Part shown: positions 25,456-42,893 of the stretch, piece after piece
Position numbering within the stretch: the first letter of the stretch is position 1
How the letters are laid out: every line of letters begins with the position of its first letter
Made by a program: the position numbers and the translations under genes
Notes under the pieces: generated by a model
The model's input: the letters and a program-made list of their open reading frames with translations, nothing else
Told to the model about the DNA's origin: nothing
Database searches by the model: none
Assembly: GCA_023251775.1 (NCBI GenBank)
Contig: JAHEYC010000009.1
Span: 1-57,469 of the forward strand
Direction of reading: 5' to 3'
Length of the DNA: 57,469 nucleotides
Source of the DNA: Sphingobacteriaceae bacterium
Lineage (GTDB): Bacteria; Bacteroidota; Bacteroidia; B-17B0; Aurantibacillaceae

Positions 25456-27699
25456 CTATTTTCCTTTATTGATGATCTTAATATCGGTTTGACCAACAAT
25501 ACGTAAAGCAGTTCTTCTGTTCTTTTGATGCGCAGCTTCCCATTCTTCGCTCTTTTTTGGAAATTTATTAATATCAACTTCCAAAATGAGTGGATTTGTT
25601 TCACCCAAACCTTTTGACTTTAATCGCGTAGCTGCGATCCCTTTCGAGATCAAATAATCCACACACGATTGTGCGCGCGCCTGAGATAACTTTAAATTGT
25701 ATTGATCATTACCCCTGCTGTCTGTATTCGCTTCCAGATCTACAGATAAATTATCATTCAATTTTAAAAGGTCAACGATCTTATCCAAACTTGCCATCGA
25801 CACCGGACGTAATGTTGCACTATTAAAATCATATTCAATTCCATTGATCTCAATTTCACCTGCGGGAATGGTGTTCATGAAAAAATCTTGTTGAAGACTT
25901 TCACTCTTGATCTTTCCTACAGTACTTAAACTAGCGGCATCGGCAAAATACTTAGTTTTTTGTGCCTTGATAAAATACTCACTGTTTGTTCGCAAACTAA
26001 TTGAATAAGCACCTTTATCGTCGGTGGTGATAAAATTAATGTCCTCGCCGTTGTGCGTATTTATACACGATATTAATGCACTGGCAATTGGCTCGTTGGT
26101 TGCTTGATCGAACACAATACCCGAAACGTCGAACGAAATAGGCTGACTGTTGAACGAAAATAATTTATAACAGTTGCCGCCCGGGCAATCGTCTCTATCA
26201 CTTGTAAAATAGCCTCTCAAACCATTATTTTCCATTACAAGATACGCATCATCCTTACTTGAATTTATGGGTGTATTTAAATTCACAGGAATTCCGTACA
26301 CATTATCCGATGCCATGTACTCGCTTTTCATAATATCCAATCCACCAATGGTAACATGTCCGTTAGAACTAAAATAAAGTGAACTGGAAGCAGGATGTAA
26401 AAATGGCGTAACCTCATCGCCTTTAGTATTTACAGGTGCTCCCAAATTTTTTGGTTCACCAAACATTCCTTCTTCGCTAATATCAATGGTCCATATATCC
26501 ATTCCGCCCAATCCACCCGGACGATTAGACGAGAAATATAATCTTCTTCCATCACCGGTTAAAAATGGATGCGTTGTTTTATAGCCAACTTTATTTATCA
26601 GCAATCCTAATTTCTCAGGCGGGAATGTTCGTCCTTCCGTTATATTCACCTTGTACAAAAATGCTTCACTTGCATTATCATCACTCCAACGCGTAAAGAA
26701 ACAAAAACGTTCGCTCATGAATCCTGCGCCCTCATGCATTTCGGAGTTCACAGGCCTGTTCATGTTCACAGGCGCATTCCATCCCGAATCACTTTTTTCA
26801 ATTGAATACAGATCGCATAAATAATCGGTCAAAGTATCTTTGGGTGCTTTCGGATTTTTTGGAATTTTCCCTGTACTTCCCTTACGCGCGCTTGTGAAAA
26901 GTAATTTAGTAGGGCTGTTATTATAAAATGAGATACCAAAGCTTGAATTTCCTCCATTGAATTTACTGGAATCAAGTTTTATGATCTGCATGGTGCGCGG
27001 ACCACTTAAACTATCAATAGCAAGAAAACAACCTGCTTGTTTTTTTTGAGCTAAGGTTAAAAGTGAATCACTACCTGCATTTGAATTAATATACGTTTCT
27101 AGCGCATCAAGTGCTCCTTGGTATTTTTTCAAGGCCATTAATGTGAGACCATAATAGTATAAAGCATCCTTCACATTATTGTCGACGCATCGCTTATAAT
27201 ACATCTCAGCTCCCTGAAAATCTGAATTAAAACGATACGAATGTGCTAATTGCATTGTGACATACGCTTCCGGAAATTCATATTTCATTCCGGTCTTTTT
27301 TGGCTTTTTTCCCTTGGTAGAAGTAGTATCTTTTGTAGCAACAACTTGTGGTTGTTTTGGAGGATCGATGGGTTTAACAACAGCCGAATCTTTTTTTACA
27401 ACAACTTTTGTGCTATCCTTCACCTGAGTACTATCCTTACCCTTTCTCATTTCTTTTTTTAGGGTAGGACCTTTGAATTTTTTATTTGCCATTCCAATTT
27501 CATAAGGCAAAACAGCAGTGCTATTCACAACGGTTGTATCGTCGAGCGCTTTTAAATACCAAGCAATAGCAGTAGAATAATCTTGTGCTTTAAAACACTT
27601 ATCACCCTCTTCTGTCCATAGCTTTTTCGATTGCGAGAAAGAGTTAAGGGAAATTAAAAAGGTGAAAACAAAAACGAGGTTGCGGTGGATATGATTCAT
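25456..27699 (-). CDS. PorE-like OmpA-family protein of the SprB-like locus
   Basis: Second protein with the TPR, PD40-propeller, CRD, OmpA order. Signal peptide ends SFSQ (about 23). A Lys/Thr/Pro-rich insert (about residues 75-135: repeated KDST, KPKK) splits the TPR region and is absent from the paralogue at 14008-16065. Propeller blades are YFSSNRPGGLGGMDIW-like; a carboxypeptidase-regulatory domain spans about 535-610; the OmpA domain has ANTDSRG and LSQARAQSCVDYL (about 660-690). Its position next to porP/sprF suggests a dedicated link between the adhesin translocon and peptidoglycan. Starts 4 nt after the PorP gene stop. Confidence 0.87.
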   Translation of the reverse strand: MNHIHRNLVFVFTFLISLNSFSQSKKLWTEEGDKCFKAQDYSTAIAWYLKALDDTTVVNSTAVLPYEIGMANKKFKGPTLKKEMRKGKDSTQVKDSTKVVVKKDSAVVKPIDPPKQPQVVATKDTTSTKGKKPKKTGMKYEFPEAYVTMQLAHSYRFNSDFQGAEMYYKRCVDNNVKDALYYYGLTLMALKKYQGALDALETYINSNAGSDSLLTLAQKKQAGCFLAIDSLSGPRTMQIIKLDSSKFNGGNSSFGISFYNNSPTKLLFTSARKGSTGKIPKNPKAPKDTLTDYLCDLYSIEKSDSGWNAPVNMNRPVNSEMHEGAGFMSERFCFFTRWSDDNASEAFLYKVNITEGRTFPPEKLGLLINKVGYKTTHPFLTGDGRRLYFSSNRPGGLGGMDIWTIDISEEGMFGEPKNLGAPVNTKGDEVTPFLHPASSSLYFSSNGHVTIGGLDIMKSEYMASDNVYGIPVNLNTPINSSKDDAYLVMENNGLRGYFTSDRDDCPGGNCYKLFSFNSQPISFDVSGIVFDQATNEPIASALISCINTHNGEDINFITTDDKGAYSISLRTNSEYFIKAQKTKYFADAASLSTVGKIKSESLQQDFFMNTIPAGEIEINGIEYDFNSATLRPVSMASLDKIVDLLKLNDNLSVDLEANTDSRGNDQYNLKLSQARAQSCVDYLISKGIAATRLKSKGLGETNPLILEVDINKFPKKSEEWEAAHQKNRRTALRIVGQTDIKIINKGK

Positions 27700-27703
27700 A
27701 CAA

Positions 27704-28693
27704 TTAAATACGTGGACAGTGCTTGATCTTTTTCATCTTGTCCTTTCCCATTAAATACGTAAAAGAAATTTCGTAAGCGCCTTTGTTATTAGTTACAGTT
27801 TTTAAAGAAGAAGTATTAACGTCGTAAGCTAATCGAAGAGTGTATTCCAACTTTTTAACGCCAACACTAAAAATAGTAGCATCTTTTGTTCTCCAAACAA
27901 AACCTGCCAACAAATACATTTTACCTTCTTTTAAATAATAACCTGCATCAGCCGCGTAAGTTTGCTCAGTTGCTTTACCTTGCTTCATAATTAATATCTT
28001 CGGCAAAACATATAACTCTTCCGTAATATTAATTCTAACCCCTGTGTGAATTGTATATCTTAATGGGAGTTTATTGGATTGGTTAAAAAATGTTTCCCTC
28101 GGATGTGTCATATTAAATACCGACAAACCCAAGAAAGGATTTAAAAGCGCTTGTTGCTTTGAATAATAATACATAAACCCTGCATTTACCTGAGGAATGA
28201 TGGTCCTCATTTTAGAAAAGTCCTCATTATTATCAATGTCCTTATTAAATGTACCTCCACCAACCGGGGTATATTGACTATCGAACGAATACTTTTCTTC
28301 CTTAATAGATTTTTGAGTTACTCCCGCTTGTAAACCAAACGATAAGCCATGAAATTTTTGTTTATCAATTGGAACAGAGTAACCCGTAGATAACAATGTT
28401 TGAAAGGCATTATAGTTACCAATACCTGCCCTCATGTTTATCATTTGAATTCCGTATCCCCATTTCCCCTTGGCCATATCGGCACTTATTAATGCGGTTG
28501 TAAATGGTTTGTAAGCCACAGCACTCCATTGGTTCCTGTATTGCGCATGGATCCTTACCTTAGAATCTATCAATCCTGTCATTGCAGGATTCAAGAACAA
28601 AGGTCCCGAATCATAAAGAGACAAGTGAAAGTCTTGAGACCTTACTTGGCTACTACAAATGATCAACGTAATTAATATAACTATTTTTTTCAT
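27704..28693 (-). CDS. PorP/SprF family T9SS outer membrane protein
   Basis: Outer membrane beta-barrel of the PorP/SprF family, needed to export and attach T9SS cargo with type B C-terminal domains. Signal peptide (residues 1-19, ending VRSQ). The opening HLSLYDSGPLFLNPAMTGL and YRNQWSAV blocks are the family signature; FVWRTKDATIFSVGVK and the C-terminal YDVNTSS segment are also typical. 329 residues. It lies 5 nt after the giant adhesin gene. SprF is encoded right after SprB in gliding relatives in the same way, so it most likely serves that protein. Confidence 0.92.
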   Translation of the reverse strand: MKKIVILITLIICSSQVRSQDFHLSLYDSGPLFLNPAMTGLIDSKVRIHAQYRNQWSAVAYKPFTTALISADMAKGKWGYGIQMINMRAGIGNYNAFQTLLSTGYSVPIDKQKFHGLSFGLQAGVTQKSIKEEKYSFDSQYTPVGGGTFNKDIDNNEDFSKMRTIIPQVNAGFMYYYSKQQALLNPFLGLSVFNMTHPRETFFNQSNKLPLRYTIHTGVRINITEELYVLPKILIMKQGKATEQTYAADAGYYLKEGKMYLLAGFVWRTKDATIFSVGVKKLEYTLRLAYDVNTSSLKTVTNNKGAYEISFTYLMGKDKMKKIKHCPRI

Positions 28694-28698
28694 GTGTT

Positions 28699-31600
28699 CT
28701 ATTTCAATACGGTTACATCACCCGTTTTTCGCACAAACGTTCCGTTGTACAATTCCACATCCAATATCCAAACATATACACCTAAAGGAACAGGTTGTCC
28801 TTTATAACTTCCATCCCATCCTTTTTCTTGTACATCGGACACAAATAATAATTCACCCCAACTGTTATAACATCTAAACGATAATGATTTGAATGGTCCA
28901 CCTTTTACAAAAAGAATATCGTTACTTCCATCACCATTAGGCGTAAATGCCGTTGGAACCAAAGGAAGAAGCGTTACGAAGATATCTTTTGTAACAGTAT
29001 CCAAACATCCATTATTATCTTTTACAATTAACCTAACAGGATAGATACCTTTATCAGGGAATGCAAAATTAGGATTTTGAGAAGTTGAATTTCCTATGTT
29101 TGCAAAGTTCCAGGTCCAATTTGTAAGCGTTGGTGCAGGTGCACTTTGATCTATAAAATTCACATTATCATAAGCCAATACATACTGCGGTGTCGCCGTA
29201 AAATCAGCAATTGGATTTGGATTGACCGTAATTGTTTTTGTAATTGTTGCAGGACAACCTTTATTTGTTGTAACAGTAAAGTTCACTACATAATTACCGG
29301 TAAGAGTATAAGAGCTCGTTGGATTCTTGATGTTAGAATTGCTTCCATTTCCAAATGTCCAATTCCATGTTACAATTGTATCTGTTACAATTGTAGATTG
29401 ATCAAAGAAACTTGACGCATAACCAACACACACACTACTATAAGTAAAATCTGCTACAGGGGAATTATAAACTGTTACCGATTTTTTTATCGTATCAAAA
29501 CATCCGTTAGTTAATGTCACCAAATGTATAACTGTAAATGTACTTGTTGAAGAGTATGTATGGACAGGATTCGCCAATACTGAACCACCACTGGCATCTC
29601 CAAAATCCCAACTAAATGTTCCCAATGAATTTGAAGGTGCAGAAAGATCGGTGAATGAAATTGTTTGATTTGCACAAGCTAAACTATTTGAGAAATCTGC
29701 AAATGGCGATCGTATGAACGTCACCATAATTGAATCTTTGTTTGGCAAACATCCTTTATTATTTGTTGAAGTTAATATTAAGGTTAAGAATCCTGCTGTA
29801 GTATCTGCACTTGACGGAATATAAGTTCCATTAAGTGTATTTGTGCCGGGATTAAATATTCCGGTTCCACCATTGGCTGTCCATGTACCTGTATTCGTGA
29901 CCCCAGTTATAGTTCCACTAAATGGTACAAATGCATTCTTACAAATATTTAAACTTGTTGCGACATCGACCGTAGGTGAAGTGAGAACCATAAATCGTAT
30001 GGTATCATTTTGCGAAGGACATCCACCACCAAATGACGTTAATACTAATTCGAAGAATGGTCCACTCACATCCGCAGCACTCATTGTATACGTTGTTGCC
30101 AAACTATTTGTTGGTGCAAATGTTCCAGAGCCTAAGGTTGTCCATAAACTATTTGTATAATTTCCGGTGATCGTTCCTGTTAATGGAATAAATACTGCGC
30201 TCGCACAAATGGTATCAATGCGCGGACCAATATCAACAACTGCCGGTACATCAATTACTACAATAATTGTTGAGGCAGGACCATTACATCCGTTAAGACT
30301 AGAAACAACTGTATAAACTCCTGCTGCAGGACCAATTGCAACTAACGTTGGATTTTGTAAAGCTGATGCAAATGCATTTGGGCCTGTCCAATTATATGAA
30401 ACCCCCGGTGAGAATGTTGCGCTTAAACTCAATGTATTTCCTGTACATAAAGGAGAATTAGCAGAAGGGATCGCAGCGCTTGGATTAACTCCAACTGAAC
30501 CACCAATAACGGCCACCGAACTTGTACAACCTAATAATGTAATTGTTACCGAATAATTTCCTGTTGAAGCAAGTACCGCAGGAGATATGGTTGGATTTTG
30601 TAAAGATGATGTGAAACTATTTGGACCAGTCCAACTGTAAATACCTCCCGATGGCGTAATATTAAATATTAGATCTTGTCCATTACAAACCGGTGAATTG
30701 CTATTTCCTGTTGGAGGAGGAGGAGTTGGATTGATAGTAACGTTTGTTGTGCCAAGTGGTCCGTTACATCCCGCAACATTTACATAAACCGAATAAACTC
30801 CGGCGTCTAATGTGCTTATTCCAACAACAACCGGATTTTGCAAGCTTGAAGAGAATCCATTTGGACCTGACCAACTATAAGTTGCTGCTGCAATTGTATT
30901 AGCCGTTAAACTTAAAGTTTGTCCCGGACACAATGCTGAGTTGTTTGAAGCTATTGGCGCTAATGGTGATGGGTTCACAGTTACACTTGTTACACCAAAT
31001 GGACTTGGACAACCAACTACAGTAACAAAAACAGAATACACGCCACTTGCCAATGTGCTTGCTCCAACAATAGTTGGGTTTTGAACGTTAGAAGTAAAAC
31101 TGTTTGGACCGATCCAAGTATACGTTCCGCCAACTGTAAACGACGCGGATAAACTTAACGTAGAATTTGCGCAGATCGGCGAGTTATTAGTTGCAATTGG
31201 TGCAGGTGGAATATCGCTGATGGTTACACTGGTTGTTCCTATTGGTCCTGTACATCCGTTAACTGTTACAAATACCGAATACATTCCGGTTGCTAAAGTA
31301 CTTGCTCCTACTATGGTTGGATTTTGTAAACCTGATGCAAACGCATTTGGTCCGCTCCAACTATAAGTTGCACCAACAATTGTATTCGCGGTTAAACTTA
31401 AAGTTCCACCGGTACAAAGTGTAGAGTTATTTGTTGCTATAGGTGCTAATGGTGTTGGATTGATAGTTACACTTGTTGTTCCTATAGGGCCAGGACAACC
31501 ATTTACGGTAGCAAATACCGAATAAATTCCTGCTGCTAAGGTACTCGCTCCAACAATGCTTGGATTTTGAACGTTATCGGTGAACGTATTTGGACCAGTC

Positions 31601-34600
31601 CAACTATAAGTTGCACCGGCAATGAAGTTTGCAAATAAGTTTAATGTTTGACCTGAACAAATGGTTGAGTTATTAGTTGCGATCGGCGCTAACGGTAAAG
31701 GATTTACTGTTACGCTTGTTGTACCGATCGGACTTGGACAACCAACAATAGTTACAAAAACAGAATATACTCCGCTAGCTAGTGTACTTGCTCCTACAAT
31801 GGTTGGATTTTGAACGTTAGCGGTAAAGCTATTCGGTCCGCTCCATGTATATGTTCCACCCACAGTAAAAGTTGCTGATAAGTTTAAAGTTTGTCCGGCA
31901 CAAATTGTAGAGTTATTTGTAGCAATTGGTGCAGGAGGAATATCACTAATAGTAACACTCGTTGTAACAATTGGTCCAGTACATCCGCCCACAGTTACAT
32001 ATACCGAATACATTCCTGTTGCTAATGTTGTTGCACCAACAATGGTTGGATTTTGTAAAGAAGATGTAAATGCATTTGGTCCACTCCAACTATAAGTTGC
32101 ACCCGCAATTAAGTTTGAAAATAAATTCAAGGTTTGACCCGTACATAATGTAGAGTTATTAGTTGCTATTGGCGCACCAGGTGTTTGATTAACTGTAACA
32201 CTTGTTGTACCAATTGGGCCAGGACAACCTCCTACCGTTGCGTAAACCGAATAAACTCCGGCCGCTAAAGTACTTGCTCCAACAATGCTAGGATTTTGTA
32301 GCGAAGAAGAAAATGCATTCGGTCCTGTCCAACTATAAGTTGCACCTGCAATTAAGTTTGAAAATAAATTTAATGTTTGACCAGAACAAATAGTAGAGTT
32401 ATTGGTTGCGATCGGTGCTAATGGTAATGGGTTTATTGTAACGCTTGTTGTTCCTATTGGACTAGGACAACCCACAATGGTTACAAATACAGTGTATACA
32501 CCTGTTGCTAAAGTTGTAGCACCAACAATAGTTGGGTTTTGAACGTTAGCCGTAAAACTGTTTGGACCACTCCAAGTATATGTTGCGCCTACTGTTGTAC
32601 TTGCCGATAAACTTAATGTTTGTCCCGCACAAATAGTTGAGTTGTTAGTTGCAATTGGCGCTATTGGAATTGGACTGATGGTTACACTTGTTGTACCTAT
32701 TGGTCCAATACATCCGCCAACCGTTACATAAACAGAATACATGCCCGTTGCTAAAGTTGTTGCGCCAACAATAGTTGGATTTTGTAAAGCTGATGTAAAT
32801 GCGTTTGGTCCTGTCCAACTATACGTTGCTCCTGCAATTAAATTTGAAAATAAATTTAACGTTGAACCTGTACATAATGTTGAGTTATTGGTTGCAATTG
32901 GTGCTAATGGAATTGGATTGATAGTTACTGATGTTGTTCCTATTGGTCCATTACAACCGCCAACAGTTACATATACAGAATAAACACCCGTTGCTAATGT
33001 GGTTGCACCAACAATGCTTGGATTTTGTAAATTAGAACTAAATGCATTAGGACCTGTCCAACTATAAGTTGCTCCTCCAATTAAGTTTGAAAATAAATTT
33101 AATGTTGATCCAGAACAAATGGTTGAGTTATTAGTTGCTATTGGTGCTAATGGAATTGGATTGATGGTTACAGAAGTTGTTCCTACTAAACCATTACAAC
33201 CGCCAACCGTTACATAAACAGAATACATTCCCGTTGCTAAGGTTGTTGCACCTACGATGGTTGGATTTTGAATATTAGCGGTAAAACTATTTGGACCACT
33301 CCAGCTGTAAGTTGCGCCTGCAATTAAGTTAGAAAATAAATTTAATGTTGCACCCGAACAAATTGTTGAATTGTTTGTTGCTATCGGTGCTATTGGAATT
33401 GGATTGACCGTTACCGATGTTGTTCCAATTGGACCATTACAACCGCCAACTGTTACATATACAGAATACATTCCTGTTGCTAATGTTGTAGCTCCTACTA
33501 TGGTTGGATTTTGTAATGTAGATGTAAATGCGTTTGGTCCTGTCCAACTATAACTTGCACCGGCAATTAAGTTTGAGAATAAATTTAATGTCGAGCCTGA
33601 ACAAATAGTTGAATTGTTTGTTGCTATTGGCGCAAGTGGAATTGGATTGATAGTTACACTCGTTGTTCCTATTGGTCCATTACAACCGCCAACAGTTACG
33701 TATACGGAATACATTCCAGTTGCTAAGGTTGTTGCGCCAACGATCGTAGGATTTTGTAAAGTTGATGTAAATGCGTTTGGTCCCGTCCAACTATAACTTG
33801 CTCCTGCAATTAAGTTTGAAAATAAATTCAAGGTTGATCCCGAACAAATAGTTGAATTGTTTGTTGCGATCGGTGCTAATGGTAATGGGTTTATTGTAAC
33901 GCTTGTTGTTCCTATTGGTCCATTACAGCCACCAACGGTTACATAAACCGAATACATTCCGGTTGCTAATGTTGTTGCACCAACGATGGTTGGATTTTGT
34001 AACGTTGATGTAAATGCGTTTGGTCCGCTCCAACTATACGTTGCTCCTGCAATTAAGTTTGAAAATAAATTTAATGTGGCGCCCGCACAAATAGTTGAGT
34101 TATTAGTTGCGATAGGTGCTAATGGTAATGGATTTATGGTAACACTTGTGGTTCCTATTGGACCATTACAACCACCAACCGTAACATATACCGAATACAT
34201 TCCGGTTGCTAATGTTGTTGCACCTACAATGGTTGGATTTTGTAACGTTGACGTAAATGCGTTTGGTCCTGCCCAACTATATGTTGCACCGGCTACAAGA
34301 TTAGAAAATAAATTGAGTGTTTGTCCCGCACAAATAGTTGAGTTATTTGTAGCAATCGGCGCTAAAGGAATTGGATTAACGGTTACTGACGTAGTTCCAA
34401 TTGGTCCATTACAACCACCAACGGTTACATAAACCGAATACATTCCGGTTGCTAATGTTGTTGCTCCAACTATGGTTGGATTTTGTAAAGCGGAAGAAAA
34501 TGCGTTTGGCCCGGTCCAACTATACGTTGCCCCGGCAATTAAGTTCGCAAATAAATTTAATGTTGCGCCCGAACAAATAGTTGAATTGTTTGTTGCAATT

Positions 34601-36453
34601 GGCGCTAATGGAATTGGATTGACCGTTACGGATGTAGTTCCCACGGGACTGTTACAACCCAGTACTGTTGCATATACAGAATACATACCGGTTGCTAATG
34701 TTGTTGCTCCAACAATAGTTGGATTTTGCAAAGCAGAAGAAAATACATTTGGTCCTGTCCAACTATAAGTTGCAGTTGCAATAGTACTCGCAAATAAACT
34801 TAACGTTGAGCCCGAACAAATAGTTGAATTATTTGTTGCTACAGGCGCTGCAGGATTTGGATTAACAACAACTGCAACTGTTCCGGTTAAACCTGTACAA
34901 CCTGCAACGATGGCTCTAACCGAATAAACCCCGGCTGCAAGAAGAGTAACTCCGGGAATAGTTGGATTTTGTAAATTCGAGGTAAAACCATTAGGCCCGT
35001 TCCAAGTGTAAGTTGCACCAGCAACAGTGCTGGCAGTTAAGCTCAATAATTGCCCAACACATAAAGGTGTGTTAGCTCCTGCAACCGGAGGTGGCGGAAC
35101 AAAAGGCGGACAAGTAACGGTATTCATTTGGTAATCTCTCACCATCTCGCTTAATAGAACTGCACCACGGAATTCTTGACACTTAACTCCAAAAACAAAT
35201 TGACCATTTGTATTCGCAACACCACTCATAATTCCTGTTACAGGATTTAATGTAACAGAAGGTGCCGGTGAATTAAAAGGACTTGTAGCTGTATAACTTG
35301 GAACCCAATTTACAGGCGTCATTCCTGCTACGTTATTTGTAAAAGTTGGAGCCGGCGCATCATTATAAGGGGTATACATTGAATAAACCAAAACGTCGCC
35401 ATCTAGATCGGTTGCCGATTGATTTAAAGCAAATGTATTAGTTGAACAGACAAATAAAGGCGGCAAGGCATTATAACTTGGACTACTGTTCGGAACAAAT
35501 GTGTTATCGTAAACAGTGACCATATCAAAATGATATATTTCATCATTTGGAGATAATGCACCATATGCAATTCTCACAAAAACTTCAACAGTATTTCCAA
35601 TTAATCCGGTTGCCGTAGCAAAAACATTTGTATTAAAATCGGCTACACGCTGACCGTTGACCGGAAATAATACTTTTGCCCCGCCATTAATAGAATAATA
35701 AATTTTAATTGAGTCGGTATTTTCGAGGGTAACACCGGCAGGTTCTGAATAATTAACGCTTAAGTTAACACCAGCTGCAAAAGCCGAAATATTTATAGTT
35801 GAAGTTGCATAAACAATTTTACTTCCCAATGCATTATTTTGACTAGTTACTTCAAACGATCCGTTAGCTACTGCTGCTGTAGGTGCGGGCGCTGCTCCTG
35901 TAATTGTTCTTGTCCAAGCGGTAGGACCTGCATCAGAAGTAGTTCCGTCAGCTAATGTGAAATCCTCTGTCCAAGTTTTGAAATAACAAGGAATAAAAGC
36001 ATAAAATGTTTCACCTGCCGAAGCCGGCAGTGTAATATTAAGGATACTTGGGTTTCTGCAACACAAAGAATAAACTAAATGCATTCCACCCGGGGCAGGT
36101 GCTAAATTTACAGAGATCGTATATGTTCTTTCTTCAACACAAGGAGTTACCGCAGGTGCAGTTGCGCAAGGAGGCAAAACGGCGGGAATATTAATTATAG
36201 CTCCACCATTCATTGTGAAATTTCTACTAGGTGCAAACAAAGAGCCATCGGCCTGTAGAACAGATATTGCTACGTTGGCAGGAAAAGCAATTCCCGAACA
36301 ATCACGGTAAAGCTTTAACATCACCGTATAATTATTACCCCCGTTATAAGTATAAGTAAGAGCTCCCCCTACTATATGGGAAGAAAATCCTTTATTTGGA
36401 ATAATAAAGGAAAAAATAATAAAACAAAGTAAACTTCGGTATAAATTCCTCAT
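28699..36453 (-). CDS. giant SprB-like surface adhesin with type B (gliding-associated) C-terminal domain
   Basis: 2584-residue exported adhesin. Signal peptide 1-24. The N-terminal domain begins SHIVGGALTY, as in many gliding-associated proteins, and is split by a foreign segment at about 157-320 before resuming at NALPPLFVCSTNTF. About 20 tandem 81-residue Ig-like repeats follow (455-2070), each with two cysteines and a GPN[AS]F core. Next are two TGTITG domains (about 2080-2270), three PKD domains (DFSN..., WDFGDASG) and a TIGR04131-type C-terminal domain starting VPTAFTPNGDGSNDI. The C-terminal domain marks it for T9SS export with PorP/SprF help. First gene of a four-gene operon. Adhesion or gliding is inferred from the family. 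Confidence 0.92.
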   Translation of the reverse strand: MRNLYRSLLCFIIFSFIIPNKGFSSHIVGGALTYTYNGGNNYTVMLKLYRDCSGIAFPANVAISVLQADGSLFAPSRNFTMNGGAIINIPAVLPPCATAPAVTPCVEERTYTISVNLAPAPGGMHLVYSLCCRNPSILNITLPASAGETFYAFIPCYFKTWTEDFTLADGTTSDAGPTAWTRTITGAAPAPTAAVANGSFEVTSQNNALGSKIVYATSTINISAFAAGVNLSVNYSEPAGVTLENTDSIKIYYSINGGAKVLFPVNGQRVADFNTNVFATATGLIGNTVEVFVRIAYGALSPNDEIYHFDMVTVYDNTFVPNSSPSYNALPPLFVCSTNTFALNQSATDLDGDVLVYSMYTPYNDAPAPTFTNNVAGMTPVNWVPSYTATSPFNSPAPSVTLNPVTGIMSGVANTNGQFVFGVKCQEFRGAVLLSEMVRDYQMNTVTCPPFVPPPPVAGANTPLCVGQLLSLTASTVAGATYTWNGPNGFTSNLQNPTIPGVTLLAAGVYSVRAIVAGCTGLTGTVAVVVNPNPAAPVATNNSTICSGSTLSLFASTIATATYSWTGPNVFSSALQNPTIVGATTLATGMYSVYATVLGCNSPVGTTSVTVNPIPLAPIATNNSTICSGATLNLFANLIAGATYSWTGPNAFSSALQNPTIVGATTLATGMYSVYVTVGGCNGPIGTTSVTVNPIPLAPIATNNSTICAGQTLNLFSNLVAGATYSWAGPNAFTSTLQNPTIVGATTLATGMYSVYVTVGGCNGPIGTTSVTINPLPLAPIATNNSTICAGATLNLFSNLIAGATYSWSGPNAFTSTLQNPTIVGATTLATGMYSVYVTVGGCNGPIGTTSVTINPLPLAPIATNNSTICSGSTLNLFSNLIAGASYSWTGPNAFTSTLQNPTIVGATTLATGMYSVYVTVGGCNGPIGTTSVTINPIPLAPIATNNSTICSGSTLNLFSNLIAGASYSWTGPNAFTSTLQNPTIVGATTLATGMYSVYVTVGGCNGPIGTTSVTVNPIPIAPIATNNSTICSGATLNLFSNLIAGATYSWSGPNSFTANIQNPTIVGATTLATGMYSVYVTVGGCNGLVGTTSVTINPIPLAPIATNNSTICSGSTLNLFSNLIGGATYSWTGPNAFSSNLQNPSIVGATTLATGVYSVYVTVGGCNGPIGTTSVTINPIPLAPIATNNSTLCTGSTLNLFSNLIAGATYSWTGPNAFTSALQNPTIVGATTLATGMYSVYVTVGGCIGPIGTTSVTISPIPIAPIATNNSTICAGQTLSLSASTTVGATYTWSGPNSFTANVQNPTIVGATTLATGVYTVFVTIVGCPSPIGTTSVTINPLPLAPIATNNSTICSGQTLNLFSNLIAGATYSWTGPNAFSSSLQNPSIVGASTLAAGVYSVYATVGGCPGPIGTTSVTVNQTPGAPIATNNSTLCTGQTLNLFSNLIAGATYSWSGPNAFTSSLQNPTIVGATTLATGMYSVYVTVGGCTGPIVTTSVTISDIPPAPIATNNSTICAGQTLNLSATFTVGGTYTWSGPNSFTANVQNPTIVGASTLASGVYSVFVTIVGCPSPIGTTSVTVNPLPLAPIATNNSTICSGQTLNLFANFIAGATYSWTGPNTFTDNVQNPSIVGASTLAAGIYSVFATVNGCPGPIGTTSVTINPTPLAPIATNNSTLCTGGTLSLTANTIVGATYSWSGPNAFASGLQNPTIVGASTLATGMYSVFVTVNGCTGPIGTTSVTISDIPPAPIATNNSPICANSTLSLSASFTVGGTYTWIGPNSFTSNVQNPTIVGASTLASGVYSVFVTVVGCPSPFGVTSVTVNPSPLAPIASNNSALCPGQTLSLTANTIAAATYSWSGPNGFSSSLQNPVVVGISTLDAGVYSVYVNVAGCNGPLGTTNVTINPTPPPPTGNSNSPVCNGQDLIFNITPSGGIYSWTGPNSFTSSLQNPTISPAVLASTGNYSVTITLLGCTSSVAVIGGSVGVNPSAAIPSANSPLCTGNTLSLSATFSPGVSYNWTGPNAFASALQNPTLVAIGPAAGVYTVVSSLNGCNGPASTIIVVIDVPAVVDIGPRIDTICASAVFIPLTGTITGNYTNSLWTTLGSGTFAPTNSLATTYTMSAADVSGPFFELVLTSFGGGCPSQNDTIRFMVLTSPTVDVATSLNICKNAFVPFSGTITGVTNTGTWTANGGTGIFNPGTNTLNGTYIPSSADTTAGFLTLILTSTNNKGCLPNKDSIMVTFIRSPFADFSNSLACANQTISFTDLSAPSNSLGTFSWDFGDASGGSVLANPVHTYSSTSTFTVIHLVTLTNGCFDTIKKSVTVYNSPVADFTYSSVCVGYASSFFDQSTIVTDTIVTWNWTFGNGSNSNIKNPTSSYTLTGNYVVNFTVTTNKGCPATITKTITVNPNPIADFTATPQYVLAYDNVNFIDQSAPAPTLTNWTWNFANIGNSTSQNPNFAFPDKGIYPVRLIVKDNNGCLDTVTKDIFVTLLPLVPTAFTPNGDGSNDILFVKGGPFKSLSFRCYNSWGELLFVSDVQEKGWDGSYKGQPVPLGVYVWILDVELYNGTFVRKTGDVTVLK
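30240..35090 (-). repeat. tandem array of ~20 x 243-bp coding repeats
   Basis: Each unit encodes 81 residues starting APIATNNST and containing Cys at unit positions 11 and 65. Copies 2-17 are very similar, with adjacent copies such as 6 and 7 nearly identical at the protein level. The edge copies (1, 18-20) are diverged, a pattern of central homogenisation. Such an array is prone to expansion, contraction and assembly collapse, so the copy number here may not be exact. Confidence 0.9.
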
Positions 36454-38567: not shown

Positions 38568-38650
38568 AGGATATTTCCTGCTCTTAACCTCTATTTACCA
38601 CTCATAATTTATTTTTTCTCCTTTTATAAGGGATGCTTACCTTCGGTAAA

Positions 38651-39694
38651 ATGGCTAAACACAACAAAACATATTGGATAGCTCAAGTTGGTGGATGGTC
38701 GTTCTATACGCTTATCAATCTCATTTTTTTTGAGTTAACAGCTAAAACCACAAAACAAGATTATATCATTTACTTTTTCGTTATCACGTTGGGCATTTCT
38801 ATTAGTCACATTTACCGGACTGTGCTTAAAAAATTGAAGGTGGTGGAAATGAATTTTCTCTATCAAATAATTACAATGCTCATCAGTAGTGTTTTTAAAG
38901 GTGCTATTACTGCATTGATCATTAATGTGATCTTAAAAGTGATCTTTCCCGGTGCACCGATCAGTTTTGAAAATCTTTTGAAGGATATCATTAATTTTTC
39001 AACTGTATTTTTTGTATGGAATATCATCTACTTTGGTTATCATTATTTAGTGAATTACAAACGCGCAGAGATAGACAATCTTCGTTTGGAAGCAGCCGGA
39101 AAAGAAAGTGAACTCAATAGTTTAAAAGCGCAATTAAATCCACACTTCATGTTCAATAGCATGAATAGCATTCGAGCGTTAGTTGATGAAGATCCCATAA
39201 AAGCAAAACAAGCGGTGACTCAATTATCAAACATCTTGCGCAATTCGTTATTGATGAACAAAAGCAAAGAGATCACCATTAAAGAAGAAATGAATTTGGT
39301 GAAAGATTATCTAGATCTTGAAAAGATCCGTTACGAAGAACGCTTGAGTTTTGAATTATCCATCGATCCTAAAACAGAACACTTGATGGTTCCGCCTTTA
39401 ATTATCCAAGGACAAGTTGAAAATGCCATTAAACACGGGATCTCAAAACTAGAACAAGGCGGGAAGATAATTGTTGCCACAAAATTAAAAGATTCGTTGC
39501 TCTTGATCACTGTTACAAATACAGGACAATTGAACACTGAACGTTCGATCACAGGATTAGGATTCAATAACTCTTTGCAGCGCTTGCAATTGATGTACGG
39601 AAAAAAAGCTGAGATCAAAATTCAAGAAATACCCAATACAAAATTAGTTGAGACACATATTCAGATCCCATTAAAAACACAAACTAAAAACTAA
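38651..39694 (+). CDS. LytS-like membrane sensor histidine kinase
   Basis: Two-component sensor of the His_kinase (PF06580) type. Four hydrophobic helices (residues 10-140), a short coiled coil (REIDNL to AAGKESEL), then the phosphoacceptor region LNPHFMFNSMNSIRALV with His at about 177, and a GHKL ATPase domain with PPLIIQGQVENAIKHG (N box). ATG 38651 (MAKHNKTYWIAQ) is preferred over ATG 38633 because a TACCTTCG, a near -7 box, lies at 38638-38645. It forms a pair with the response regulator 12 nt downstream. The signal sensed is unknown. Confidence 0.9.
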   Translation: MAKHNKTYWIAQVGGWSFYTLINLIFFELTAKTTKQDYIIYFFVITLGISISHIYRTVLKKLKVVEMNFLYQIITMLISSVFKGAITALIINVILKVIFPGAPISFENLLKDIINFSTVFFVWNIIYFGYHYLVNYKRAEIDNLRLEAAGKESELNSLKAQLNPHFMFNSMNSIRALVDEDPIKAKQAVTQLSNILRNSLLMNKSKEITIKEEMNLVKDYLDLEKIRYEERLSFELSIDPKTEHLMVPPLIIQGQVENAIKHGISKLEQGGKIIVATKLKDSLLLITVTNTGQLNTERSITGLGFNNSLQRLQLMYGKKAEIKIQEIPNTKLVETHIQIPLKTQTKN

Positions 39695-39706
39695 AACATA
39701 CATACC

Positions 39707-40420
39707 ATGAAGGCAATTATTGTAGATGATGAACGTTTAGCGCGTAACGAATTAAAAAGTTTGCTCGCCAATCATAAAGAAATTGAAGTGATAGCAGAAT
39801 GCGCTAATGCTACCGAAGCCAAAGAAAAAATTGATGCATTAAAACCTGATGTTGTTTTTTTGGACATTAATATGCCGGGCAAATCAGGCTTGGAATTGGT
39901 TGAAGAAATTTCTGCCCTACCCGATGTTGTTTTTGTAACAGCGTATGATGAGCACGCCATTAAAGCATTTGAGTTAAATGCATTTGATTATTTATTAAAG
40001 CCCGTTCAACCACAACGTTTATCGGAAACTCTGAAAAAACTTGCCGAAAAAGAACATGTTTCTAAAGGAGATAATAATGGCCCACTAGATGAGAACGAAT
40101 TAATTTTTGTAAAAGACGGAGAAAAATGTTGGTTCGTTCGCTTAGCCGATATACGCTTGTTTGAATCGGAAGGAAATTATGTGCGCGTATATTTCGAGAA
40201 TTTTAAACCACTTATTTTACGAAGTTTAAATAATCTTGAAGGTCGACTTAACGAACGTCAGTTTTTTAGAGCCAGTCGTAAACACATCATTAATCTTAGA
40301 TGGATAGCCAGCGTTGAAACCTGGTTCAATGGTGGCTTAATGGTTAAGCTCAAAGACGGAAAAGAGGTAGAAATATCACGTAGACAAGCTGTTAAAATAA
40401 AGGATATGCTCAGTCTTTAG
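39707..40420 (+). CDS. LytTR-family response regulator
   Basis: Receiver domain (residues 1-115) with acidic pocket DDE at the N terminus, phosphoacceptor Asp in VVFLDINMPG (about 54), switch Thr in VFVTAYDEHA and Lys in LLKPV. The C-terminal LytTR DNA-binding domain (about 135-235) has GNYVRVYF and FFRASRKHIINLRWI. 237 residues. Co-transcribed with the LytS-like kinase, its presumed phosphodonor. Targets are unknown. A weak autoregulatory or downstream target could be the secreted M43-like gene that follows 121 bp later, but no LytTR repeat pair is obvious there. Confidence 0.93.
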   Translation: MKAIIVDDERLARNELKSLLANHKEIEVIAECANATEAKEKIDALKPDVVFLDINMPGKSGLELVEEISALPDVVFVTAYDEHAIKAFELNAFDYLLKPVQPQRLSETLKKLAEKEHVSKGDNNGPLDENELIFVKDGEKCWFVRLADIRLFESEGNYVRVYFENFKPLILRSLNNLEGRLNERQFFRASRKHIINLRWIASVETWFNGGLMVKLKDGKEVEISRRQAVKIKDMLSL

Positions 40421-40541
40421 TGAACAATAAAAAGGCTTCACTCACCAACAACCTAGTTTTGAAAACTTAGAATGCATTTTTAATAGCTATAAAGTGTATT
40501 TTACGTTTTTTTCACTACATTTAAGGGTTAAATCAACCGAT

Positions 40542-42893
40542 ATGACCAAAAAACTACTTTTAACTGCTTCAGCCCTTGTGTTCTCTATGGGAAATTCATT
40601 TTCTCAAAACAATACAAACTCCGCTTCAACTATTAATAAATTATCAGGTACACAACCTCCTCCACAACAGTGGGAAGCTTGGTTCAGTGCCAAAGTGGAA
40701 GAATTCAAAAAAAATAATTCTGCCGGAAAATCTGCTTTTGCAGCGTATAACATTCCTGTTATATTTCACATATTACATAATGGAGCAGCCGTTGGTACGC
40801 CTCCAAATATTCCTCAAGCGCGTGTTGGCGCACAAGTAAATATCTTAAATCAGATATTCAACGGACAAGGAGCAAATCCATTAGCAATTACGCAATATTC
40901 TAATTATGCTTCAAATCCAAATATTCAATTTTGTTTAGCAACAGCAGATCCAACAAATATTCCTCTTGGAGAACCTGGTATCAATCGTGTGGATATTGGC
41001 GCGATCTTCGGAGCAAATACGGGAACAATGACCTCCGATGCAGCACTTTTAAGTTTTATTGAATATACCGTTAAACCTTTTGTGATCTGGAATCCTGTGA
41101 AATACCTTAATATTTTTGTGAGTGAAACAAGCACAAGTATTACCGTTTTAGGAAGTGCAACATTTCCATCAAGCACAACCTTGCAAGGCCCGTTTGGTTC
41201 TATTGGAACAGGAACCACGGATGGCGTTTGGGTTGCAACTAAAGTTGTTGGAACAGCAACATCATTACCAGGGCCGTACATAGCAAACTACGATAAAGGA
41301 AAAACATTGGCGCGCGAAATTGCACACTGGATGGGTGTTCGTAATATTTGGGGAGATGCTAATTGTGGATCGGATTATTGTAACGATACACCGCCACATA
41401 CAGGACCAAATTCTACGTGCCCTGGAGGATATCCGTATAAAGTTAATTCTTGCGGACCAAATCTTAGTCCCGGTGGAGAAATGAGTATGAACATTATGGA
41501 CAATACTTACGATGATTGCCGATGGATGTTCACCGCAGATCAAGTTGTCAGAATGCAAACCGCCATGAGTCAATGTCCATTTAGATCTGCTCTTGGTACG
41601 CATGGATTATGTACGCCAACAGTTATTTGTTCTCCCGGATCTCCTGCACAAGCAAGCTTTAGTTTAACTGCTCCTGCTCCTTGTTTTGGACAAGCATTTA
41701 CGCCGGTTAATACATCAACAGGTTGTCCTTCTCCAACATTTACATGGAACTTAACTCCAAATACTGCAACTGTTAACTCAGGATATTATACAGGTCAACC
41801 TTCATTTAATTTATCGAGTCAGGGAACTTATACGTTGGAATTAATTGCTTCCAACTCTTTAGCAACAACATCGTATAGCATTGTGTTTGCAACTACTATT
41901 TGTCCTAAAAATCCTCTTTGTTTAGATACATTAAAACGGATCAAGAAAACAGATACATTGGCAGTTTATGCTGTTCAAGGAAGTACTTCTGTTATTGGTT
42001 GTGGTGGACCATTAGCACCGGGCTTTTTAACCGGAACCAATTGTTATAACGATAAAGAATACGCTCAATATTTCCCTGCAAATACCTATAGCGATATTGC
42101 CTTACCACAATTAGGATCAGTTTATGTATTATTCAACAAAGCAGGAACAAAATCAAATTCAGGTACAGGAACAACGTATTGTAATGTATGGGGCGGAGGA
42201 ATACAATTTGGACCAACCACATTACTCATACAAAAGTTAGCACCATTGGCCAGTGTCGTCTCCACAGTCGTCGCAACTTGGTCAAATGTAGCCTCACCAA
42301 CTAATACAGTTCCATGGTGTGGTACATCTACGTATACATTTGCGGGCAAAGATGTTTACGCTTATAAATATTCTTTTGATCCGCCTTATTTATTACCAAC
42401 TAACGGTTTCCATATTGGAGTTGAAATGCCTTGGACAACAAAAAATCTAGGTGATTCTGCACAGATATTTGGTAATCGCTTAACCAATGCACTTCTTGCC
42501 GATACATCTGCATTTGTGAGAACGCAAACGAACAGCTGGTATAAATTAAATAATTTACGCAGTAAAAATGTTCAATTAGCTATTATGCCGGAGATCACTT
42601 GCCGCAATAAAGTTGGATTGACCGAATACAAAAATGAATTGGATGTGAATTTACGTTTAATGCCAAATCCAAACAATGGTGTATTCAGTATCTTAGCCAC
42701 ACTTTCAAAAGAGCAAGATCTTACATTTAAAATTTACAATTACATGGGACAATTACTTGGAACCAACGTTGAGTCGAAAGTGTTGAGTCGTGTTTTTGAT
42801 ATCGACATGAGTAATAGTGCCAATGGCGTTTACTTTGTGGAGATAAGTAACGGCACACAAAAAACCGTTAAGAAAATGGTGATCAGTAAATAA
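40542..42893 (+). CDS. secreted M43 (pappalysin)-like pseudoprotease with T9SS type A domain
   Basis: Signal peptide MTKKLLLTASALVFSMGNSFSQ-like (1-21); ATG 40542 is chosen for it over ATG 40494. The M43 fold is recognisable: VIFHILHNG, the zinc region REIAHWMGVRNIWGD, CGSDYCNDTPPH with its cysteines, and the Met-turn MNIMDNT. The zinc motif HExxHxxGxxH has lost its first and third histidines (Arg258, Asn268); Glu259, His262 and Gly265 remain. Catalysis is therefore unlikely. A PKD-like domain (about 365-455), a C-terminal beta region and a type A sorting domain (LMPNPNNGVF ... GVYFVEIS ... KKMVISK) follow. Probably a surface binding protein. Confidence 0.85.
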   Translation: MTKKLLLTASALVFSMGNSFSQNNTNSASTINKLSGTQPPPQQWEAWFSAKVEEFKKNNSAGKSAFAAYNIPVIFHILHNGAAVGTPPNIPQARVGAQVNILNQIFNGQGANPLAITQYSNYASNPNIQFCLATADPTNIPLGEPGINRVDIGAIFGANTGTMTSDAALLSFIEYTVKPFVIWNPVKYLNIFVSETSTSITVLGSATFPSSTTLQGPFGSIGTGTTDGVWVATKVVGTATSLPGPYIANYDKGKTLAREIAHWMGVRNIWGDANCGSDYCNDTPPHTGPNSTCPGGYPYKVNSCGPNLSPGGEMSMNIMDNTYDDCRWMFTADQVVRMQTAMSQCPFRSALGTHGLCTPTVICSPGSPAQASFSLTAPAPCFGQAFTPVNTSTGCPSPTFTWNLTPNTATVNSGYYTGQPSFNLSSQGTYTLELIASNSLATTSYSIVFATTICPKNPLCLDTLKRIKKTDTLAVYAVQGSTSVIGCGGPLAPGFLTGTNCYNDKEYAQYFPANTYSDIALPQLGSVYVLFNKAGTKSNSGTGTTYCNVWGGGIQFGPTTLLIQKLAPLASVVSTVVATWSNVASPTNTVPWCGTSTYTFAGKDVYAYKYSFDPPYLLPTNGFHIGVEMPWTTKNLGDSAQIFGNRLTNALLADTSAFVRTQTNSWYKLNNLRSKNVQLAIMPEITCRNKVGLTEYKNELDVNLRLMPNPNNGVFSILATLSKEQDLTFKIYNYMGQLLGTNVESKVLSRVFDIDMSNSANGVYFVEISNGTQKTVKKMVISK

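Follow-up and report, generated by a model that had tools for sequence, protein, structure and literature searches.

Pappalysins are zymogens, and in mirolysin the propeptide residue Cys23, part of a Cys-Gly motif, binds the catalytic zinc as its fourth ligand (PMC6949598). Replacement of this cysteine breaks latency and lowers the stability of the zymogen (PMC8259862). Only His or Asp is known as the third zinc ligand of metzincins (PMC6949598, PMC11674741). Cytophagalysin and other multidomain pappalysins of Bacteroidota are secreted and join an M43 domain with the ancestral propeptide Cys to accessory domains; the site of cytophagalysin is intact and its activity has been measured (PMC11674741).

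Pseudopeptidases are already well known. In metallopeptidase families such as the inactive ADAMs and the M14 pseudopeptidases, the fold is kept, the catalytic motif is lost and a non-catalytic role is expected (PMC11266112; this review is silent on M43 and pappalysin). Pseudo-orthocaspases, of an unrelated cysteine-protease fold, are an earlier bacterial example of pseudoproteases that several species have kept (PMC6426788). Inactive homologues are usually called from a single missing residue, which leaves doubt.

Here we describe a protein encoded in a 57,469-nucleotide stretch of DNA (the window) that resembles cytophagalysin and its relatives in predicted secretion, M43 domain and accessory domains, and differs in its zinc site. 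Unlike the pseudoenzymes reviewed in PMC11266112, it is bacterial, predicted to be secreted by the type IX secretion system (T9SS), and has lost the zymogen latch too. No report of an inactive M43 protein or pappalysin, or of a paired loss of zinc ligands and cysteine switch, was found in the open literature searched. A dead pappalysin that has repeatedly lost its ligands and latency switch as a pair thus seems to be undescribed there.

Gene, domain layout and predicted fold

The gene occupies 40542..42893 on the forward strand, as do all features given below unless stated otherwise, and encodes 783 aa from an ATG start. The frame is also open from an upstream GTG at 40494, which would give a longer ORF. 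The ATG was preferred because it yields a proper signal peptide obeying the Q-rule of Bacteroidetes signal peptides (PMC10653852): read by eye, the N-terminus is MTKKLLLTASALVFSMGNSFS followed by QNN, with a putative signal peptide of residues 1-21 (40542..40604) and cleavage before Gln22. The propeptide (residues 22-66, 40605..40739), delimited by superposition on promirolysin, is retained in sequence. It is followed by the M43 domain (residues 67-345, 40740..41576), which has the pappalysin fold and is predicted to be non-catalytic. The match to Pfam PF05572 (35.1 bits against a cut-off of 23) identifies the protein as an M43 homologue, and the best solved relatives are the unicellular pappalysins mirolysin, from Tannerella forsythia (phmmer 4.6e-29 over the M43 region), and ulilysin. 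As Pfam scores this protein above threshold, T9SS M43 proteins should not all be annotated as peptidases.

The AlphaFold2 model (mean pLDDT 74.5) agrees with the fold assignment. It matched promirolysin (6r7u) with a VIA Z of 30.6 and an rmsd of 2.7 over 280 residues, and ulilysin with a Z of 29.1. Residues 33-358 superpose on residues 21-326 of promirolysin, propeptide included, and Ser35 of the window protein therefore falls at the position of Cys23. The PKD and lectin-like domains are additional to what mirolysin and ulilysin contain. The PKD domain (residues 365-456, 41634..41909) gave a VIA Z of 10.8-11.2 to 1l0q and 10.7 to the PKD domain of ColG. The predicted lectin-like beta-sandwich (residues 457-688, 41910..42605), modelled with moderate pLDDT, resembles the lectin-like domain of Cwp84 from Clostridioides difficile (4d59), with a Z of 14.0, or 13.7 when the C-terminal half was modelled separately. 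With 10% identity over 157 residues at Z 13.7, this is a likeness of fold only. In Cwp84 the domain is attached to a cysteine protease, and carbohydrate binding has not been demonstrated there either (PMC4089489).

A T9SS type A sorting domain ends the protein (residues 708-781, 42663..42884), with PF18962 and TIGR04183 both above cut-off and the Por_Secre_tail match at 51 bits. The genome encodes SprA and at least 150 such sorting tails. Export by T9SS, as proposed in the preliminary description, is thus well founded, and the protein with its predicted signal peptide and C-terminal sorting domain is to be regarded as a predicted T9SS cargo.

Lesions in the zinc site and the cysteine switch

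The zinc site of the window protein reads REIAHWMGVRN and departs from the HExxHxxGxxH/D motif, two of the three His ligands being gone. The first is replaced by Arg258 (CGC, 41313..41315) and the third by Asn268 (AAT, 41343..41345); both codons lie in the frame of ORF 40542-42893, exactly where the preliminary description had placed them. Because His258 and His268 are invariant in 104 of the 104 ligand-intact M43 homologues scored in the family, chance variation is excluded. Sequencing or assembly error is excluded as well, since losses at this site also occur in two further genomes that share the gene neighbourhood (REIAHWLGVKN and HEIGHWLGLKN).

The remainder of the site has been kept as first described. 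The general base Glu259 (41316..41318) and the second zinc ligand His262 (41325..41327) are invariant in our alignment A1, and Gly265, IWGD and the four disulfide cysteines (275, 293, 304 and 326, equivalent to 243, 262, 271 and 291 of mirolysin) are all present in the translation. The calcium/disulfide loop is retained, and Asp324 corresponds to the S1' Asp289 of mirolysin. The Met-turn, said earlier to be kept, is so only in part (41496..41504). Met319-Asp320 are in place, Met319 matching Met284 of mirolysin, but the tyrosine-switch Tyr expected two residues beyond the Met (mirolysin Tyr286; PMC6949598) is replaced by Asn321.

A second lesion lies beyond the region covered by the preliminary description. 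The cysteine-switch Cys, equivalent to mirolysin Cys23, is replaced by Ser35 (TCA, 40644..40646) in the context KLSGT, whereas relatives read RTCGT. The propeptide of the window protein hence has no Cys to cap a zinc ion. We also considered Asn321 as a third independent lesion and rejected it. The dead relatives L007 and L008 keep the Tyr and many ligand-intact relatives are without it, so this change is not diagnostic.

The relatives without Tyr form a ligand-intact M43 clade in the same genus (L017, L023, L024, L028, L029 and L030-L035), in which the Met-turn reads MDG, MDM, MDR or MDN and the His ligands and switch Cys are kept. The activity of these proteins may be altered. In two further homologues, L109 and L110, the motif reads HELSHYFG: all three His are kept, but Ser takes the place of the Gly that usually precedes the middle His. 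Their Met-turns are likewise unusual (MNFSDY and MNFADY).

Distribution and repeated loss among homologues

The main sample, drawn from 87 genomes of the same family, comprised 109 M43 homologues. An intact HExxHxxGxxH together with the propeptide Cys was found in 102, and lost ligands together with Ser in five, while the combination of Cys with lost ligands did not occur (0/109). The remaining two were intact proteins without an alignable propeptide Cys, one truncated and the other very distant. Accordingly, all 102 aligned ligand-intact relatives have Cys and all 5 ligand-lost ones have Ser. The five dead motifs are REIAHWMGVRN in the window protein, REIAHWLGVKN in L008, HEIGHWLGLKN in L007, QEIGHWLGLRK in L010 and QEIGHWLGLRN in L012. 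Among 60 columns conserved in the intact homologues, the dead proteins differ at 5 (L010 and L012) or 9-10 (the window protein, L007 and L008) and the intact ones at 0-2. In the former pair the two ligands and the switch Cys account for three of the five differences, and the differences in the latter three include the same zinc/latency set.

An alignment-query search across Bacteroidota returned 86 further homologues, among which L137 was the sole ligand-lost one, and its sequence matches the already counted L012. Two propeptide-less lipoproteins in this set are without the Cys and have an intact site. The propeptide Cys also seemed to be missing from many distant homologues; this proved to be a trimming artefact, the Cys being present in nearly all. 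At the DNA level, the pattern for Asn or Lys at the third ligand matched exactly the five dead genes in the 87 genomes; in 395 genomes (196 genera) sampled across the class it matched the window gene alone. The preliminary description had proposed to see whether the loss is lineage-wide. It is not: within the genus, besides the window's genome, 4 of 39 others were found to have it, and the affected genes make up two small clades.

A maximum-likelihood tree was built without the trait columns. Clade 1 consists of the window protein, L008 and L007 (100/100), and its sister is the intact L076 from another genus (100/100). Clade 2 (L010 and L012, 100/100) is nested elsewhere, in a clade in which all other members are intact. 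A single origin of the five dead genes was rejected by AU tests (p 0.0006, and p 2e-6 in a second analysis). The Cys state and the ligand state each change twice on the tree, once per dead clade. As the five genes split into two clades, the sequences and tree indicate at least two joint losses of the zinc site and the latency switch, each from an intact ancestor. The latency Cys therewith acts as an internal witness, because the residue that caps the catalytic zinc vanishes in the same lineages as the zinc ligands, and does so twice. Loss of the zymogen latch might thus offer a general test to tell real pseudoproteases from odd active enzymes.

Within clade 1, all three members share Asn268 and Ser35, so the simplest reading is that their common ancestor had already lost the third ligand and the switch Cys. 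The window protein and L008 further share H258R, G261A and L266V, positions at which L007 has H, G and L. The tree nevertheless joins the window protein with L007 (99/96-97), and the alternative was rejected (p 0.029). Because L007, with HEIGH and two of the three His, nests beside the window protein, the order of the loss steps is not clean. L007 thus reads HEIGHWLGL where its sister (the window protein, 41313-41345) and the outgroup L008 read REIAHW.GV; parallel change, reversion and gene conversion are all possible.

Might the protein still be an enzyme, with an alternative metal site or another nucleophile giving residual hydrolysis? Glu259 and His262 have equivalents in all five dead proteins, and L007 retains two His. 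We consider continued hydrolysis highly improbable, since the known third ligands are restricted to His and Asp, as cited above, and both losses were accompanied by loss of the latency Cys. A search of the window's clade for substitute ligands found no newly conserved His or Cys that could complete the site. Asp166 and Cys345 were the only clade standouts and were rejected as conserved replacement ligands; Cys345 is also found in 13% of intact relatives. The loss of catalytic zinc binding that had been predicted from the motif is supported by the twice-independent joint loss of ligands and propeptide Cys.

In a 47-row tree, the dead genes fall in a 34-member clade that holds one member per genome. 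On this ground the dead gene seems to occupy the place of the active one rather than to accompany it. Four other M43 genes, all ligand-intact, are located elsewhere in the window's genome. No active M43 gene adjoins the window gene, and a tandem active partner was accordingly rejected.

Selection, gene neighbourhood and possible function

The dead M43 domain is under purifying selection and retained across species. In the unsaturated dead pair L010/L012 its dN/dS is 0.044, and within the window's clade it is about 0.18-0.20, where dS of 1.3-1.9 is near saturation and the values are therefore rough. Intact pairs gave 0.02-0.13. The propeptide is the relaxed part, with the highest dN/dS of the protein (0.30-0.42 in dead pairs). 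Together with the predicted pappalysin fold, these values bear out the earlier statement that the scaffold is conserved. That the gene is decaying on its way to a pseudogene, as the long stem branch of the window's clade (0.5-0.9 changes per site) could suggest, is hardly conceivable: the frames are open at full length in three species diverged to 58-69% identity, omega is well below 1, and the disulfide cysteines and sorting domain are conserved.

An inert M43 domain is a further alternative to be weighed. The function would then reside in the lectin-like module and the T9SS-anchored tail, with M43 as a spacer aiding folding or secretion of the C-terminal half. In the window's clade M43 and the C-terminal half evolve equally fast (omega 0.177 and 0.167), while most intact pairs show a rate for M43 that is equal to or below that of the C-terminal half. 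Each of the five genomes with a dead gene has, moreover, the dead protein as its only close carrier of the C-terminal half, although the MAGs G004 and G006 are incomplete (73% and 60%). On the other side, M43 is the slowest part in the second dead clade (0.044 against 0.085), and eight other genomes of the genus encode the PKD-lectin-like half as separate proteins of 424-468 aa without M43, several adjoining the orthologue. Because such stand-alone proteins exist, M43 is not required by the C-terminal half and the module can serve without a protease. We thus regard an inert spacer as unlikely. The stand-alone PKD, lectin-like and T9SS copies include L014:63-1334, L009:4022-5269 and L057:998-2323, among others; they may represent a modular binding unit, and their lectin-like part has no Pfam name.

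The dead fold might instead act as a decoy or regulator that binds inhibitors, activators or substrates of the same cell's active pappalysins and so shields or tunes them. Pseudopeptidases regulating active cousins are known (PMC11266112), the genome encodes the four ligand-intact M43 proteins mentioned above, and neither S1' Asp324 nor the framework of the cleft has been lost. Such a role is nevertheless quite improbable, as no adjoining active M43 gene, no inhibitor gene and no link to the other M43 genes was identified.

A homologous fold with catalytic residues missing is what defines a pseudopeptidase, and this is what was found here. Since the fold and the modules remain under purifying selection in spite of the lost ligands, the window protein is probably a secreted pseudopeptidase kept for binding or scaffolding. 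Its ancestor would have been an ordinary latent zinc protease of the pappalysin family with signal peptide, propeptide, M43, PKD, lectin-like domain and T9SS tail. The replacement of the third zinc His and of the zinc-capping propeptide Cys would date from an ancestor common to this and two related species, and the first His would have been lost additionally in the window's gene. One His and Glu alone should be insufficient to retain a catalytic zinc, and so no hydrolysis is expected. The cysteine switch, pointless without zinc, would therefore have gone along with the ligands. Purifying selection would keep the fold, the calcium/disulfide loop, the S1' Asp and the C-terminal modules. Outside the cell, on its surface or in the medium, the protein would then most probably bind or scaffold a protein or glycan ligand via the retained cleft, the lectin-like module or both. 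As zinc ligands and zymogen latch were shed at least twice, a non-catalytic function (cleft or lectin-like binding) may already have been present. That this group of orthologues readily turns into non-enzymatic binding proteins, owing to an important non-catalytic function that predates the loss of catalysis, is a possibility to which we give somewhat less than an even chance. These genes would represent a natural experiment on the use of a secreted protease fold without catalysis.

A LytS-like histidine kinase and a LytTR response regulator (38633..40420) precede the gene, and by tblastn their order is the same in G006 and G023, the genomes of the two nearest dead relatives. Named by reading the sequence, the neighbourhood runs QueE, LytS, LytTR, the dead gene, TatD, Lnt, dihydrolipoyl dehydrogenase and PurE, and this neighbourhood is common to all three clade 1 members. 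At the other loci examined, with intact or clade 2 genes, no common neighbours were found besides weak matches to one very large ORF, so the orthology of the wider group rests on the tree and not on synteny. As LytS/LytTR lies directly upstream of the dead gene in three species, it may regulate it. Elsewhere in the window, 25459-36453 on the reverse strand encodes a 2584-aa secreted protein together with PorP/SprF-like and OmpA/TPR-like proteins, which, as judged by reading the sequence, is typical of T9SS/gliding clusters.
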